A program made the translations under genes and the position numbers. From Myxococcales bacterium (GTDB lineage: Bacteria; Myxococcota; Bradymonadia; UBA7976; UBA1532), in contig JAGQJJ010000041.1 in assembly GCA_020430675.1 (NCBI GenBank), positions 1-13,671 on the forward strand: a stretch of 13,671 nt of DNA, read 5' to 3'. The notes beneath the pieces are model-generated. The model was not told where the DNA came from. It was given only the letters and a program-made list of their open reading frames with translations, and did no database searches. Of the stretch, positions 1,070 to 12,642 are shown in pieces (within the stretch, counting starts at the first letter, position 1; the number at the start of each line of letters is the position of its first letter).

Positions 1070-2842
1070 ATGCCTTGCGCCCCGAAGGCCCGCTGCGCGA
1101 TGATCGGCGCGCCAATCCCGGGAGGAGGCGAAGGTCGGCCGTTGACGCGAGACCGCCAGCCTGACGACAGCGACGACCTCGGGCCGCAAGACCCGGCGCG
1201 CCAGGTCGAGACGCTGCGCTTTCAGCTCGACGCGCTGCGCGCCGCGCACGCCGCGCTCGCGGCCGCGCACGACAAGGCGCTCGCCGCCAGCCGCGCCCGC
1301 GCCGAGTTCCTCGCCGCCATGAGCCACGAGATCCGCACGCCGATGAACGGCATCCTGGGCATGACCGGCCTGCTGCTCGACACCGAGATGGATGACGTGC
1401 AGCGCGATTACGTGCAGACCGTGCGGTCGAGCGCCGAGTCGCTGCTGACGGTGCTCAACGACATCCTCGACTTCTCGAAGATCGAAGCCGGCCATATGGA
1501 GTTGGAGCGCATCGCCTTCAACCCACGCCGCGTCGCCGACGAGGTCGTCGAGCTGCTCGCCGGGCAGGCGCGCGACAAGGGACTCGACCTGCTCTGCCAC
1601 CTCGACGCCGGCGTGCCCCGCGCGGTGATGGGCGACCCGGCCCGCTTGCGCCAAGTGCTCACCAACCTGATCGGCAACGCCATCAAGTTCACCGAGCAGG
1701 GCAGCGTGCGGCTCTACGTGCGCCCCGAGACGGGCGCGCTGGGCCGGGCCATCCTGCGCTTCGAGGTCATCGACACCGGCATCGGCATCCCGCAGGACCG
1801 TCTCGCCCGCCTCTTCGAGCCGTTCGAGCAGGGCGACGTCTCGATCACGCGCCGCTACGGCGGCACCGGCCTCGGCCTCTTCATCAGCCGCACCGTGGTC
1901 GATCGCCTGGGCGGCGCGCTGGGCGTCGAGAGCACGGTCGGCGAAGGTTCGCGGTTCTGGTTCGCGCTGCCCCTGCCCGCCGCCGAGCGCGAGGGCACGC
2001 TGCCGCCGCTGACCCCGCTGCGGGTGCTGGTGGTTGAAGGCCGTCCGCATGTGCAGGCCGCGTGGCTCGATCGCCTCGGCGCGTTCGGCTGCACCGCCGA
2101 CGCTGCGCTCGACGTCGAAGGCGCCATCGCCTGGCTCGAAGCGCATCGCGAGGTGACCCCGCATCCTCGCGTGGTGCTGCTCGGTCTGCGCGGCGTGACC
2201 GACGTCGCCGAGACCTGCGACCGCCTGCACGCGGCCGCCGGCGAGCACGCCGAGGTGGTCGCGGTCGCGCCGGTGCCGGGCTTCGAGCAGGTGCAAGGCC
2301 CGGAGCGGGTCATCGTCGAGCCGCTCAGCGACGGGCGCCTCGTCGACGCGCTGCTGACCATCATCGACCCCCGCGCCGCCGCTCGCCGCCGCCGCCAGGA
2401 CTCGGGCGCGCCCGCCGGCCGCCCCATGGGCACCGGCCGCGTGCTGCTCGTCGAAGACAACCCGGTCAACCGCCGCGTCGCCACCCTGCTGCTGCGCAAG
2501 AAAGGCATCCGCGCCGACTGCGCGGTCAACGGCGCCGAGGCCCTGCGCATGTGGGGCGCGCGCTCGTACGACCTCATCTTGATGGACTGCCAGATGCCGG
2601 AGATGGACGGCTACGAGGCCACGCGCCAGATTCGCCGCCTTGAGATCGGCGGCCATACGCCCATCCTGGCCATGACCGCGAACGCCATGTCGGGCGACCG
2701 CGAGCGCTGCCTCGCCGCCGGCATGGACGACTACATCAGCAAGCCGGTCAACGCCGACGAGCTGTTCCGCAAACTCGACGAGTGGATGCCCGCCGCCGCC
2801 AGCAGCGATGAGTCCCTCTCCCCGATCACGCCCGAGTACTGA
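1070..2842 (+). CDS. Cytoplasmic hybrid sensor histidine kinase with a degenerate and an intact receiver domain
   Basis: Numbering is from ATG 1070. A short coiled-coil region (about 45-80) leads into HisKA, with the phosphoacceptor H86 in [11 protein letters not shown]. The HATPase_c domain has the N box (N199, N203 in NLIGNAIKF), the DTGIGI box at 235 and GGTGLGL at 264-270. Receiver 1 (about 317-425) looks inactive: the acidic pair is E323-G324 and the expected phospho-Asp position is G372 in VVLLGLRG. Receiver 2 (about 457-575) is complete, with E462-D463, phospho-Asp D506 in [11 protein letters not shown] and K558 in ISKP. There is no transmembrane, PAS or GAF segment, so the signal is probably sensed in the cytosol or through a partner. 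Phosphate would pass H86 to D506 and on to an Hpt or regulator not in this window. The start is unresolved: ATG 1070 is the longest, ATG 1100 is possible, and TTG 1142 has the best Shine-Dalgarno context. The stop overlaps the next start. Confidence 0.93.
1120..1134 (+). promoter_or_regulatory. Purine-rich candidate ribosome binding site for a TTG start at 1142
   Basis: The stretch contains GGGAGGAGG (1120-1128) followed by GAAGG (1130-1134). GAAGG lies seven bases before an in-frame TTG at 1142; the stronger GGAGG is 13 bases away, which is long. No such motif precedes ATG 1070. If used, the kinase would lose 24 poorly structured residues and keep every domain. Confidence 0.35.
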
Positions 2843-3528
2843 TGAAACCCACCGCCCCGGCCCGGCGCGTCGTCGCCCTGGCCCTGTTGTTCATCGCCGC
2901 TGGCGCCGCGCCCGCCGCCGCCGACATGGGCGGCTGGTTCGCCGCCGGCCTCGGCGCCCGCCACGCCTTCGACGTCGACCTCGCCCGCCTCGCCGACGCC
3001 AAGGGTTACGGCAGCGCCAACGACGGCAGCCCGGCCAGCCTGGGCCTCGCGCTCAGCGGCGGCTTCATCTTCAACGAGAGCATCGAGGTCGGCGTGCGCG
3101 CCGAGCTGCACGTCGGCGGCCTCGACCTCGCCGCCATCGAGAAGCGCTATTTCGGCGACGAAGACAACGTGGGCAGCGCCTTGACCACCGCGCTTGAGCT
3201 GATGGGCCGCGTCGCCCTGCCGCTCACCGAAGAGCTCGACCTGATCGCCGGCGGCGCCGCCGGCTATACCCTGCTCAGCGCCGCTTCGGGCGTCGGCTCG
3301 GGCCGCATCGAAGGCATCGGCATCGGCCCCCAGGTCGGCCTGCGCTACCGCGTCAACGGCCTGCCCGGCCAGGACTCGGGCCACCTGCAGCTCACGCTCG
3401 ACGGCCGCTACCTCATCCCGTGGCAGGTCAAGGTCGGCTCGGGCGACACCGCGAAGTTCGATGACACCAGCGGCGAAGGCGTGCTGCTCGCCGGCGGGGT
3501 GCTCAGCTACGTGTTTGCCTTCCGCTAA
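2842..3528 (+). CDS. Small outer-membrane beta-barrel-like protein, function unknown
   Basis: This encodes 228 residues. The ATG at 2842 shares its A with the kinase stop (TGATG), so translation is probably coupled. A Sec signal peptide is clear: basic start, hydrophobic core (residues 10-22) and a probable cut after APAAA at 27. The mature part alternates Gly-rich and aromatic or hydrophobic strands, such as LGLALSGGFIF, GIGIGPQVGLRYR and VLSYVFAFR at the end. These look like amphipathic strands of an 8- to 10-stranded OmpA/OmpW-sized barrel. No family signature is sure enough for a name. Co-transcription with a sensor kinase may mean it is part of the same envelope response, but that is inference. 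The 222-bp element begins at the base right after its TAA. Confidence 0.75.
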   Translation: MKPTAPARRVVALALLFIAAGAAPAAADMGGWFAAGLGARHAFDVDLARLADAKGYGSANDGSPASLGLALSGGFIFNESIEVGVRAELHVGGLDLAAIEKRYFGDEDNVGSALTTALELMGRVALPLTEELDLIAGGAAGYTLLSAASGVGSGRIEGIGIGPQVGLRYRVNGLPGQDSGHLQLTLDGRYLIPWQVKVGSGDTAKFDDTSGEGVLLAGGVLSYVFAFR

Positions 3529-3750
3529 GGATCTGGCAAACAACTACTCGGCCAAGCGAGGGCGTGAGATCGACCCCCGGTCGCCAGCGCCCCCGCAGCC
3601 GGCGACGAAGGCGCACCCGGAGGTGCGTCGAGGCTGCCAAGCCCGCGACCCGACGGGGCGCAGGCAGCGCCCGCAGGGCGGGCAAGGACGAAAGCGGCGA
3701 ATGGGGGTCGAGATCGCGGCCGCCGCACCGAGTCGTTGTTTGCCAGATCC
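3529..3750 (-). repeat. 222-bp palindromic element A: inverted arms, three hairpins, conserved core (core on - strand)
   Basis: The outer arms 3529-3551 and 3728-3750 are 23-bp inverted repeats with one mismatch (left begins GGATCTGGCAAACAAC). An inner pair, TCGACCCCC (3570-3578) and its complement (3703-3711), sits symmetrically inside. Read on the - strand, three hairpins follow each other: GCCCGC-CCT-GCGGGC (3683-3669); a core hairpin closed by GCTGCC/GGCAGC (3668-3633) with inner GCCC/GGGC and loop CGTCGGGTCGC; and CGCACC-TCCG-GGTGCG (3627-3612). The 30-base core (3636-3665) is 29/30 identical to element B at 9195-9224. The element fills the gap between two convergent stop codons exactly. 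No open reading frame in it looks real and no target-site duplication is evident. Candidate structured RNA or mobile palindromic repeat; transcription is unknown. Confidence 0.8.
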
Positions 3751-9069: not shown

Positions 9070-9418
9070 GGCGGGCGTCCTTTCGCGCGGGCGAGCCGCG
9101 GCAACTTAGCCCGAAAAGTGCGTGAGCGCATCTACTACGCGCCGGGATCCCACGCCATCTCTGGCCTTGCTCGCCCTCGGCCCCTTCGGGGCGGGCCTAC
9201 GCCCCGTCGGGTCGCGGGCTTGGCCCCTCGCGGTACCACCAGTACCGCTCCGCGCCCTCAAGCTCCGCGAGGCCAGATCTGACGCGGTCTACCGCCGCTC
9301 GCGACGATCGCTCACGCACTTTTCGGGCTCGCGGTCGTCACGCACCGGTGCAACCGCGGGCGGCGGCGCGCCGATTCCGGCGATTGCCCGGGGGTCGATG
9401 ACGTGATACGCCCACTGC
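9070..9418. other. 349-bp divergent intergenic region, mostly occupied by element B
   Basis: The gap separates the divergent metalloprotease and nadC genes. Bases 9070-9107 hold the protease ribosome binding site region, 9108-9329 hold the 222-bp element B, and 9330-9418 hold the nadC leader, in which I see no convincing Shine-Dalgarno site or -35/-10 pair. The short open frames crossing the region look like readings of the repeat, not genes. Confidence 0.7.
9108..9329 (+). repeat. 222-bp palindromic element B: inverted arms, three hairpins, conserved core (core on + strand)
   Basis: The outer arms 9108-9128 and 9309-9329 are perfect 21-bp inverted repeats (left begins AGCCCGAAAAGTGCGTGAGC). 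An inner pair, TCTGGCCT (9160-9167) and AGGCCAGA (9270-9277), lies exactly 52 bases in from each end. Three hairpins follow: GCCCC-TTC-GGGGC (9180-9192); the core hairpin closed by GGGCC/GGCCC (9193-9226) with inner GCCC/GGGC and loop CGTCGGGTCGC; and GCGGTAC-CACCA-GTACCGC (9230-9248). The length and the order of parts match element A, and the core is 29/30 identical, as is the CCTTGCyCGCCC block before it (9165-9176), but the arms share no sequence with those of A. The core lies sense to nadC, so it could be in the nadC 5' leader. A lies between gene ends, which argues against a gene-specific riboswitch. Confidence 0.82.
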
Positions 9419-10273
9419 ATGCGCGCCCACGAATTCACCCCGACCCCGCACCTCGACACGCTGCTCGACCTCGCGCTGGCCGAGGATCTGGGCTGCGGCG
9501 ATGTCACCGCGGCGACGCTGATCCCTGCCGAAGCCACCGGGCGCATGACCCTGGTCGCGCGCGAGCCGCTGGTCTTCTGCGGCGCGCCGGTGGTCGATCG
9601 GCTGCTGTGGCGCTACGGCCCGAAGGCGCCCACCGTCGAGTGGCTGGCCCGCGAAGGCGAGCAGATGGCCGCTGGGGCGCGCGTGGGCCGACTCGAAGGA
9701 CGAATTCGTGACCTTTTGGTCATTGAACGCACGGCGCTCAACTTCCTGCAACGCCTCTCGGGCGTGGCCACCAAGACACGGCGCTTTGTCGACGCGGTCA
9801 GCGACACCCGAGCGCGGGTGGTCGACACCCGCAAGACGATGCCCGGCCACCGCCTGCTCGACTAGTACGCCACCCGCGTCGGCGGCGCGAGCAACCACCG
9901 CTTTGCGCTCGATGGCGGCATCTTGATCAAGGACAACCACCTCGCCGCCGCCGGGGGCGTGGCCGCCGCGGTCGCCACCGCGCGGGCCAACGCGCCGCAC
10001 GTGCTGCGCATCGAAGTCGAGGTGGAGGATCTCGACGGCCTCGACGCCGCGCTCGACGCCGGGGCCGAGGTGGTGCTGCTCGACAACTTCACGCCCGCCC
10101 AGGTCAAGGTCGCCGTCGCGCGCGCCGCCGGCCGGGCCGTCCTCGAAGCGAGCGGCGGGGTCAACCTCGACACCGTGCGCGCCTTTGCCGAGGCCGGCGT
10201 CGACCTGATCGCCATCGGCGCGTTGACCCACTCGGCGCGCGCGGTCGACCTGGCGGCCGAGATCGAAGAGTGA
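9419..10273 (+). pseudogene. nadC: nadC, quinolinate phosphoribosyltransferase, interrupted by one in-frame amber codon
   Basis: The enzyme converts quinolinate and PRPP to nicotinate mononucleotide, CO2 and PPi, the committed step of de novo NAD synthesis. The frame spans 284 amino-acid codons, a normal length, and every conserved block is present: EDLGCGDVT (22-30), ERTALNFLQRLSGVAT (103-118), DTRKTMPGHR (136-145), NHRFAL (159-164), LIKDNH (169-174), [14 protein letters not shown] and EASGGVN. Codon 149 (9863-9865) is TAG, where relatives carry the Lys of the R-x-L-E-K-Y-A-V motif; a single A-to-T change of AAG would produce it. The frame is intact before and after. Translation would stop before NHR and IKDNH, so the truncated product should be inactive. 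An internal TTG at 9923 cannot rescue function. A recent null mutation, a sequence error or amber readthrough are the options. ATG 9419 follows an in-frame TGA at 9404. Confidence 0.92.
9863..9865 (+). other. In-frame amber codon within nadC
   Basis: TAG lies between CTCGAC and TACGCC, in frame with the homologous sequence on both sides. It aligns with the conserved Lys codon of the EKYAV motif. TAG also ends the antitoxin-like gene (7251-7253) and the sulfatase (12652-12654, - strand), so it is used as a normal stop here. Confidence 0.95.
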
Positions 10274-11595: not shown

Positions 11596-12642
11596 ATGCG
11601 ACGACTCATTGCCCCGACCGCATTGCTGGCCGCCTTGCTCACCGGCTGCGAGGGCAGCGCGGTGCACGCCGACGCCGCGCCGGTGCCCGAGGCGGACCAA
11701 GGGCCCGACGCCGCGCCCTCGGATCCGGACGCCGCGCCCTTTGCTGATGCCGACCATGACGCCGCGCCCCCAATCGACGCCGCCGCCGATGCCGCGCCCC
11801 CAAGCGACGCCGCCGCCGACGCCGCGCCCCCGGTCGATGCCAGCGCCGATGCCGGCCCCGACGCCTCGCCCATCGGCCCTTCCGACGAGTTCGACGGCCC
11901 CGCCGTCGACCTGCTGGCCGCCAATGACACCGGCTGGCAGATCCTGCACCCCGAGCGCGCGGCGCGGGTCGAGATCGCCGACGGCCACTTGACCATCGTC
12001 GCCCGCAACCCGCCCGCCGATGACCATTGGGGCTGGTTCGAGGACTACTACGGCGTGCTCGTCCATCGCGAGATCGAGGGCGACTTTGCGGTCACCGCGC
12101 GGCTGCGGGTGGTCGACGACCTCGACCCGTCCGCGCCGCCCACCGGCGACTTCAACGCCGGCGGCTTTGTGGTGCGAGACCCGGCAGGCACGCACGCGGG
12201 CGACGAAAACTGGGTGATGTACAACTTCGGCGCCCAGGGCCCCACCGGCTACTCGCGCGAGATCAAGAAGACCCAGAACTCGCGCTCGGGCCTGTACCTC
12301 AACCCGCAGGCGTTCGAAGAAGAGACCCTGCTGCTCTGCCGCATCGGCGGCGTGTTCCGCTTCTGGCGTTGGGACCAAGGCTGGCAAGCCGAGCACTTCG
12401 CGCCCGGCGTCACCAACAACCAGGCGCGCGCGTGGCCCGAGATCGACGTCACCGGCGCCGCGCCGATGGCCTTCGAGATCAACCTGCCCCAGCGGCTTCA
12501 GGTCGGCATCGTCACCCACGTCTGGAGCCCCGCCGGCCCCAACGACGCCTCGATGACCCGCGCCATCGTCGACTACGTGCGCTTCGCCGCCACGCCGCCG
12601 GTCGACTTCGCCGACTGCCCCGCCGCCTTCCCGATGCCGTAA
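11596..12642 (+). CDS. Lipoprotein with DAAP-repeat linker and concanavalin-like beta-sandwich domain
   Basis: This encodes 348 residues. ATG 11596 has GGAGG five to six bases upstream. Residues 1-18 are a lipoprotein signal ending in the lipobox LTGC (C18); Glu at +2 fits outer-membrane sorting. Residues about 23-95 are a Asp/Ala/Pro linker of DAAP units, three of them exact 10-residue repeats. From about 96 (DEFDGPAVDL, W...IL) a beta-rich domain follows, with VEIADGHLTIVA, GDFAVTARLRV, GGFVVRDPAG and NWVMYNFGAQ; this pattern resembles concanavalin/LamG-type jelly-roll or DUF1349-like sugar-binding domains. Many Trp and Tyr residues and a Cys pair (LLLCR, DCPAAF) are present. Ligand unknown. 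It is probably displayed at the cell surface or periplasmic face and may belong to the nadC and FadL-type transcription unit, 27 bases after the latter. It converges on the sulfatase with 9 bases between stops. Confidence 0.8.
   Translation: MRRLIAPTALLAALLTGCEGSAVHADAAPVPEADQGPDAAPSDPDAAPFADADHDAAPPIDAAADAAPPSDAAADAAPPVDASADAGPDASPIGPSDEFDGPAVDLLAANDTGWQILHPERAARVEIADGHLTIVARNPPADDHWGWFEDYYGVLVHREIEGDFAVTARLRVVDDLDPSAPPTGDFNAGGFVVRDPAGTHAGDENWVMYNFGAQGPTGYSREIKKTQNSRSGLYLNPQAFEEETLLLCRIGGVFRFWRWDQGWQAEHFAPGVTNNQARAWPEIDVTGAAPMAFEINLPQRLQVGIVTHVWSPAGPNDASMTRAIVDYVRFAATPPVDFADCPAAFPMP
11758..11847 (+). repeat. Three 30-bp tandem repeats encoding DAAPPxDAAA
   Basis: The units 11758-11787, 11788-11817 and 11818-11847 encode DAAPPIDAAA, DAAPPSDAAA and DAAPPVDASA. 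Degenerate DAAP units flank them upstream (from about 11707). They form the flexible acidic linker of the lipoprotein and may vary in number between strains by replication slippage. Confidence 0.85.

Follow-up and report, generated by a model that had tools for sequence, protein, structure and literature searches.

The bacterial MITEs ERIC, NEMIS and RUP are short, non-coding, intergenic elements with terminal inverted repeats and a target duplication. The sections of PMC3733652 drawn on here name all three as MITEs with stem-loops, and report REPs of the GTAG and CGTC types inserted in palindromes in three species, namely GTAG-15 in A. variabilis, CGTC-1 in H. neapolitanus and GTAG-23 in T. 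roseum. According to the same sections, target palindromes free of a REP were not found in A. variabilis or H. neapolitanus and number in the hundreds in T. roseum, G-T stem pairs are frequent in GTAG REPs, and REP stems occur with alternative complementary bases; the conclusions of PMC3733652 leave open the spread of REPs that lack a dedicated transposase.

The window analysed here, a DNA stretch of 13,671 nucleotides, contains two palindromic elements, A and B (Table 1). With a probability of roughly 0.8, we read them as two unrelated non-autonomous MITEs of a Myxococcota-like genome, each carrying the same REP-like double hairpin of about 50 bp near its tip. They appear to be repeat DNA of a myxobacterium-like lineage, not one new structured RNA.

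Both elements lie where the first-pass annotation had placed them, and each forms a long, imperfect palindrome in which the same three hairpins occur close to the tip. Folded as RNA with about 8 flanking bases, A reaches -151.8 kcal/mol (z -7.87) and B -135.5 kcal/mol (z -7.75), and in either case 0/200 shuffles were as good. The core described as common to the two is indeed shared: 20 bases of it occur in two exact copies in the window, where 0.02 matches with three or fewer mismatches are expected. A small hairpin on each side of the core is retained in both elements with different stem sequences, again as annotated. The equal length of 222 bp holds for A, taken from repeat to repeat, and fails for B, which measures 218 bp when cut where its end matches an IS1380 element; the longer figure for B arises from two chance-pairing flanking bases added on each side, so the equality carries little weight.

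Element A almost fills the gap between two convergent genes. Its 3' repeat starts at the first base beyond the TAA (3526-3528) that closes the ORF at 2842-3528, the frame ending there is open for 238 codons, and the MurJ ORF is 4 bases away from A. The ORFs around B are divergently read. Searched against Rfam, the window gave no match at the gathering score, and the tRNA/tmRNA search of the window found none. Elsewhere in the window, a nadC homologue, whose first part covers QRPTase_N and the beginning of QRPTase_C, has a single in-frame TAG at 9863-9865, after which a second ORF (9923-10273) continues in the same frame; this may equally be a pseudogene, recoding or a sequencing error. At 11728-11847, within the ORF at 11596-12642, 30-bp tandem repeats code for a segment rich in Asp, Ala and Pro, close to the N-terminus of a protein that, judged by eye, looks like a lipoprotein.

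Table 1. Positions of elements A and B and of their parts in the window.
Feature	Position	Strand	Size, basis and remarks
Element A, palindromic, MITE-like; A-type backbone with nested module	3529..3750	-	222 bp; fold and alignment
5' terminal inverted repeat of A	3728..3750	-	22/23 bases pair with 3529-3551; sequence and alignment
3' terminal inverted repeat of A	3529..3551	-	sequence and alignment
Nested module in A (small hairpin P2 and core hairpin P3)	3634..3682	-	about 49 bp; lies to the left of P4
P3 region of A in module alignment A2	3633-3668	-	alignment
Tip hairpin P4 of the A-type backbone, GCACC/GGTGC	3612..3627	-	present in module-free relatives too
Element B, palindromic; IS1380-type ends with nested module	9110..9327	+	218 bp; fold and end match
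5' terminal inverted repeat of B, CCCGAAAAGTGCGTGAGCG	9110..9128	+	first 18 bases compared with the IS ends in L115
3' terminal inverted repeat of B	9309..9327	+	exact reverse complement of 9110-9128; sequence
TTAG adjoining B on the left	9106..9109	+	CTCG on the right is 9328-9331
Nested module in B (P2 and core P3)	9174..9225	+	about 52 bp; limits approximate
Hairpin right of the module of B, GCGGTAC/GTACCGC	9230..9248	+	sequence and fold

To judge from alignment scores, the similarity between A and B is probably confined to the module of about 50 bp that comprises P2 and the core. The two modules align with a score of 59 (shuffles 17.3). The backbones with the module removed score 22, where shuffles average 19.0 (sd 2.7) and 44/300 reach 22; outside the module A and B are thus no more alike than shuffled sequence, which gives no support to their annotation as one structured-RNA family. 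Slightly higher scores were obtained against single copies of two further palindrome types described below: backbone A scored 27 with a D-type copy (reached by 3/200 shuffles) and 25 with a C-type copy (10/200), and backbone B scored 24 with a D-type copy (14/200). These weak similarities, which speak against the reading of A and B as unrelated, may point to remote kinship or to shared composition.

A scan for the 20-mer over the contigs of one genome per species (84,980 species) gave four loci: L001 and L003 in MAG 3_bin.88 (G001), L004 in MAG 2_bin.46 (G002) and L002 in a Streptomyces. The last was taken as chance and dropped; it has the core only, in flanks that contain no long palindrome. 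Viral contigs gave 0 matches to the 20-mer, and four plasmid records returned by a distant search with B were set aside, each covering only 13-17% of the query. We read the lineage of G001 and G002 as Myxococcota-like because each has 50 MYXO-CTERM matches and 0/14 control genomes have any. Searching with the full element gave at least 59 matching pieces in G001 and at least 49 in G002, and searching with the core gave at least 41 and at least 44 matches, respectively, so that the further copies expected from the first-pass annotation are numerous. By BLAST, the core has a match in 2/13 genomes of the family. A covariance model of the core, built from 37 sequences, matched at least 3/57 genomes of the class at E 0.01 (at least 22 matches in G001, at least 40 in G002 and at least 7 in G006) and at least 3/235 genomes of a phylum sample at E 0.001. 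Both searches, which used stricter filters and scored few candidates, no more than 121 and 29 per genome respectively, and may therefore miss weak copies elsewhere, returned the same genomes, G001, G002 and G006, all in the family of 13.

At least three backbone families have fixed points at which some copies contain the module and others lack it; the module measures about 57-60 bp in relatives and about 50 bp in the window. The A-type alignment comprises A and 27 other copies from two genomes; partial, truncated, chimeric or minimal copies (L019, L061-L064, L066, L072, L073, L080) were left out. With two of these relatives the backbone of A scores 172 and 192, where shuffles give about 20. 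Among the 28 backbones the module lies left of the tip hairpin in 11 (including A), lies right of it in 3 and is absent in 14. The limits of the module in A are approximate, cut against module-free A-type relatives, a module-free copy of A itself not being known. D-type backbones (row L123 not counted) are filled in L119, L120 and L121 and empty in L122, L124, L125, L127, L129 and L131; at another point L132 is filled, and L146 and L148 are empty. C-type backbones (rows L152, L169 and L173 not counted) comprise 4 filled and 13 empty copies; at the junction the module takes the place of about 4 bases. A further long palindrome harbours a variant core in G006, where five of the seven loci were viewed, L181 and L189 being the other two. 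Relatives whose backbone lacks the module, or in which the module has a different context, speak further against a single family.

Some loci have more complex arrangements. At L093 (G002:C77:347027-347405), two modules that face opposite ways and are separated by about 330 bp lie within a giant inverted repeat whose arms are long and nearly perfect. At L090 (G001) and at L091, L097 and L099 (G002), modules are clustered with other recurring GC-rich hairpins, for example GGGCGGGATCTCC, and these clusters look like mosaics of several repeat types. L062 (G001:C54 near 56552) is a chimera, its left half resembling a C-type arm and its right half an A-type arm, which suggests recombination between palindrome families.

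The A-type backbones behave as MITEs. Element A itself combines 222 bp, 23-bp terminal repeats of which 22 bases pair, 28 aligned copies and no transposase gene. Direct target duplications are observed in the family: an identical 3-bp direct repeat flanks 15/31 copies, against a mean of 3.66 when the right flanks were redealt, and 0/20000 shuffles reach 15. This is the pattern of mobility that the first-pass annotation had led one to look for. No copy (0/31) has four identical flanking bases. TNA adjoins the left end of 18/31 copies and the right end of 19/31, about 60% of flanks. The 31 copies counted include three mini versions, and their ends were set by hand from alignments; automatic end calling by local pairing or folding was often wrong, too far out or inside the element, and was not used. 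The other 16/31 copies lack identical 3-bp flanks, and A itself, flanked by TGG and TTA, has no intact target duplication.

An autonomous relative with A-type ends was not seen in the G001 and G002 MAGs, which were searched with PF01797, PF01609 and NF033539, nor at four loci checked for terminal repeats, nor at nine inspected places where matches resembling A-type ends were unpaired or lay close together. Six of these nine places (L081, L082, L086-L089) look like chance, and the other three (L083, L084, L085) retain both ends and are mini versions of the element. Such mini versions (also L061 and L063) are about 55-75 bp long and contain little beyond the two ends; in L083 and L084 the 3-bp flanks are the same on both sides. 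Internal loss may have left the mini versions as its end products. In the D-type, CTAG was seen by eye on both sides in 8/12 readable rows; being its own complement, it may be a duplication or a repeat end.

For element B, the four DDE_Tnp_1 loci of G001 and G002 were checked for terminal repeats, and only L115 (G002) has B-like ends. It holds a 1,560-bp element with TTAG on both sides and a protein of 439 aa that scores 499.6 bits with DDE_Tnp_1_4 and 407.3 bits with the IS1380 equivalog NF033539 (cut-off 180), the only NF033539 match in G001 and G002. The terminal 18 bases of B match the left end of this IS at 17/18 positions and the right end of the IS at 14/18; the best place in the locus other than the IS ends reaches 12/18. 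Since the flanks of B (TTAG and CTCG) form no intact 4-bp target duplication, we class B as having IS1380-type ends and not as a proven recent insertion. Beyond the end match in L115, no further copies of the arms of B were found in the fetched loci at E 0.1, the interior of B has no match to the L115 IS at E 0.01, and B contains no transposase. B, we infer, owes its mobilisation to a transposase of the IS1380 type and is now an old or rearranged copy.

Under the reading that A and B are unrelated non-autonomous MITEs, the backbone would be cut out at its ends and pasted elsewhere by a DDE transposase supplied in trans; the duplications support such mobilisation for the A family, and for B it is inferred. 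In the A family, insertion would produce a 3-bp target duplication with TNA in about 60% of flanks, at times at the stop codon of a gene. The module would then enter near the palindrome tip, by template switching in replication or by repair of a tip break, and would afterwards move along with its host MITE. We tentatively prefer this route of entry, at slightly less than even odds, because the junctions show no clear duplication, a few bases are replaced at some of them and G001 and G002 gave no Y1_Tnp match. Weighing against the overall reading, an intact target duplication is missing from both A and B, as from the 16/31 A-type copies mentioned above, and the MAGs may lack IS and RAYT genes. 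In a stronger form, which we think unlikely, the module would be a transposase-free hairpin parasite of palindromes, a double hairpin that within one myxobacterium-like family repeatedly colonises the tips of unrelated palindromic MITEs with no HUH enzyme; the P3 loops would be kept as the recognised or replication-blocking part and the stems would exchange freely.

Within the same MITE reading, the module could instead be a true mobile hairpin of the REP type that is transferred in single-stranded form. Its Y1/HUH transposase would have been lost or be absent from the MAGs, and palindrome tips would be its favoured targets. The small palindromic unit, its many copies and its several insertion points are consistent with such transfer, as is the right flank of the module, which reads CCTCG or CCTTCG at the majority of A- and D-type sites, and insertion inside palindromes is reported for GTAG-15, GTAG-23 and CGTC-1 REPs in the sections of PMC3733652 cited above. 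However, the right flank is different at C-type and D2-type sites, and GTAG and CGTC are not terminal: by eye in alignment A2, the module has no unpaired terminal GTAG or CGTC tag, CTAC/GTAG lying across the internal loop and CGTC at the core apex. Moreover, Y1_Tnp (RAYT) gave 0 matches at E 0.001 in G001 and G002, MAGs that may be incomplete, and the three of 13 family genomes that do have a Y1_Tnp match gave no module match. A RAYT was set aside as the mover of the module, there being no Y1_Tnp in G001 or G002, and we regard HUH transfer as possible at odds well below even.

It is also conceivable within this reading, but improbable, that the palindromes had the module from the start and lost it precisely many times, for example by replication slippage. 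Two A-type subfamilies have the same module sequence and junction, and in a tree of 27 module-stripped A-type backbones (L077 left out) filled and empty copies are intermixed on near-identical backbones; several supports in this tree are low, so events were not counted. Against repeated loss, the two positions relative to the A-type tip hairpin and the differing junctions of the C-, D- and D2-types need several gains.

Retention of the elements as bidirectional terminators or stabilisers of mRNA 3' ends seems more doubtful still. Element A does lie between two convergent stop codons, 9/28 A-type elements (L077 left out) adjoin the stop of a frame with 100 or more open codons, and of the stop triplets that flank A-type elements 9/16 close such a frame, as compared with 323/1376 of the stop triplets in the same loci. 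Yet the choice of TNA as target can account for the stop codons, the equal flanks of A-type copies are direct and not inverted repeats, and B lies between divergently read ORFs.

The paired changes in the stems bear on the claim of the first-pass annotation that pairing is kept by selection. Of 40 module copies, 37 (23 distinct) were kept in the P3 alignment, L026, L111 and L034 being left out. Pairing in the P3 stem holds in 89.1% of cells, compared with 82.3% in shuffled controls. Four basal pairs have changed on both sides (8/500 shuffles reach 4). The annotated replacements of T-A by G-C and of C-G by G-C below the core in A and B are confirmed. Two-sided changes in the P3 base fill 16 cells against 3.7 in shuffles, and the covariation score is 0.184 against 0.057, dropping to 0.090 or less once the partner is slid. 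Further pair types number 6, not above chance (107/500 shuffles reach 6). The outermost P3 pair tested is unpaired in 21/23 rows, and the next five basal pairs have 5 failing cells in total. One-sided changes between standard pairs at the core base amount to 0 in 276 cells, Watson-Crick to Watson-Crick switches being the only kind; the compensatory changes at the core base are real and have no G-U intermediates. In P2 (38/40 copies kept; L026 and L111 left out), 37/38 copies have at least 4 perfect pairs, compared with 43.5% of base-shuffled flanks; there are 17 different stems, and a TNC loop, counted by eye, occurs in 28/38 copies.

The arms of the backbones show no predominance of G-U pairs. 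In the A-type (L077 left out), 25-base arms have 22 G-U pairs and 22 A-C mismatches, and 60-base arms have 29 and 71; 60-base arms of the C-type have 48 and 62, a rough count with some ends wrongly cut, and those of the D-type 28 and 36. The copies being related, the counts for module and arms are descriptive. The A-C excess in the A-type 60-base arms (G001/G002) corresponds to a G-U excess on the complementary strand and may reflect inheritance in copies that share descent. Taken together, these pairing figures do not favour an RNA of the strand read. We see no sign of RNA selection, because one-sided changes between standard pairs are absent and G-U pairs do not exceed A-C mismatches in the arms; of the claim that pairing is kept by selection, the paired stem changes stand and selection on an RNA is not supported. 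DNA folding, or mutual correction of the arms, explains the paired changes: a DNA hairpin or cruciform, or arms that correct each other, would keep both the arms and the module base paired with no RNA role needed.

That A and B belong to one undescribed structured RNA (or ssDNA) family, with a common ancestor, a functional core and outer stems that diverged with pairing kept, is therefore very improbable: the folds are far better than shuffles, the P2-P3 order recurs within long palindromes of several backbones and in a third genome (G006), and the core base has compensatory changes, but the standing of this account is lowered because module-free backbones exist, and the lack of detectable similarity between backbones stripped of the module, the presence or absence of the module at fixed points (two different ones in the A-type), the absence of one-sided changes, the G-U counts in the arms and the lack of an Rfam match at the gathering score all stand against it. 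Two unrelated mobile repeats can mimic one structured RNA family, in that a shared nested hairpin together with palindromic arms resembles a conserved core with compensatory stems.

In a search of the literature on nested MITEs and REPs, IS1380 MITEs and myxobacterial REPs or MITEs, the last of which gave no paper, none of the titles listed names these repeats. The first-pass annotation could not assign the layout to a named family; the sections of PMC3733652 considered here do, however, already describe REPs that sit within long palindromes. Compared with the known MITEs ERIC, NEMIS and RUP, A and B are likewise short, non-coding and intergenic with terminal inverted repeats, the A family has a target duplication and the ends of B are common to an IS, whereas the arms of A and B pair over most of the element, the copies are strongly divergent and a second repeat is nested near the tip. 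With the IS1380 family, B shares 17/18 bases of the left end of the element in G002 in its 18-bp ends; it differs in having no transposase and an interior without a match to that IS. The module resembles the REPs in palindromes of PMC3733652 in being a small palindromic hairpin, multi-copy as REPs are (the model matches given above), within a larger palindrome, and in having stems with alternative complementary bases. It differs in that its CTAC and CGTC lie in loops of the core and not in an unpaired end tag, in that no RAYT was found in the two module-rich genomes, and in that, set against the cases in these sections of PMC3733652, one module occurs in several backbones with module-free backbones alongside; the G-T pairs described there as frequent in GTAG REPs are absent from its core base. 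Should the module truly move with no Y1 transposase, the filled and empty copies on near-identical backbones would make the spread of transposase-less REPs, the question raised in the conclusions of PMC3733652, testable. The nested module is a variant of the kind of REP inside a palindrome that PMC3733652, in the sections considered, describes.
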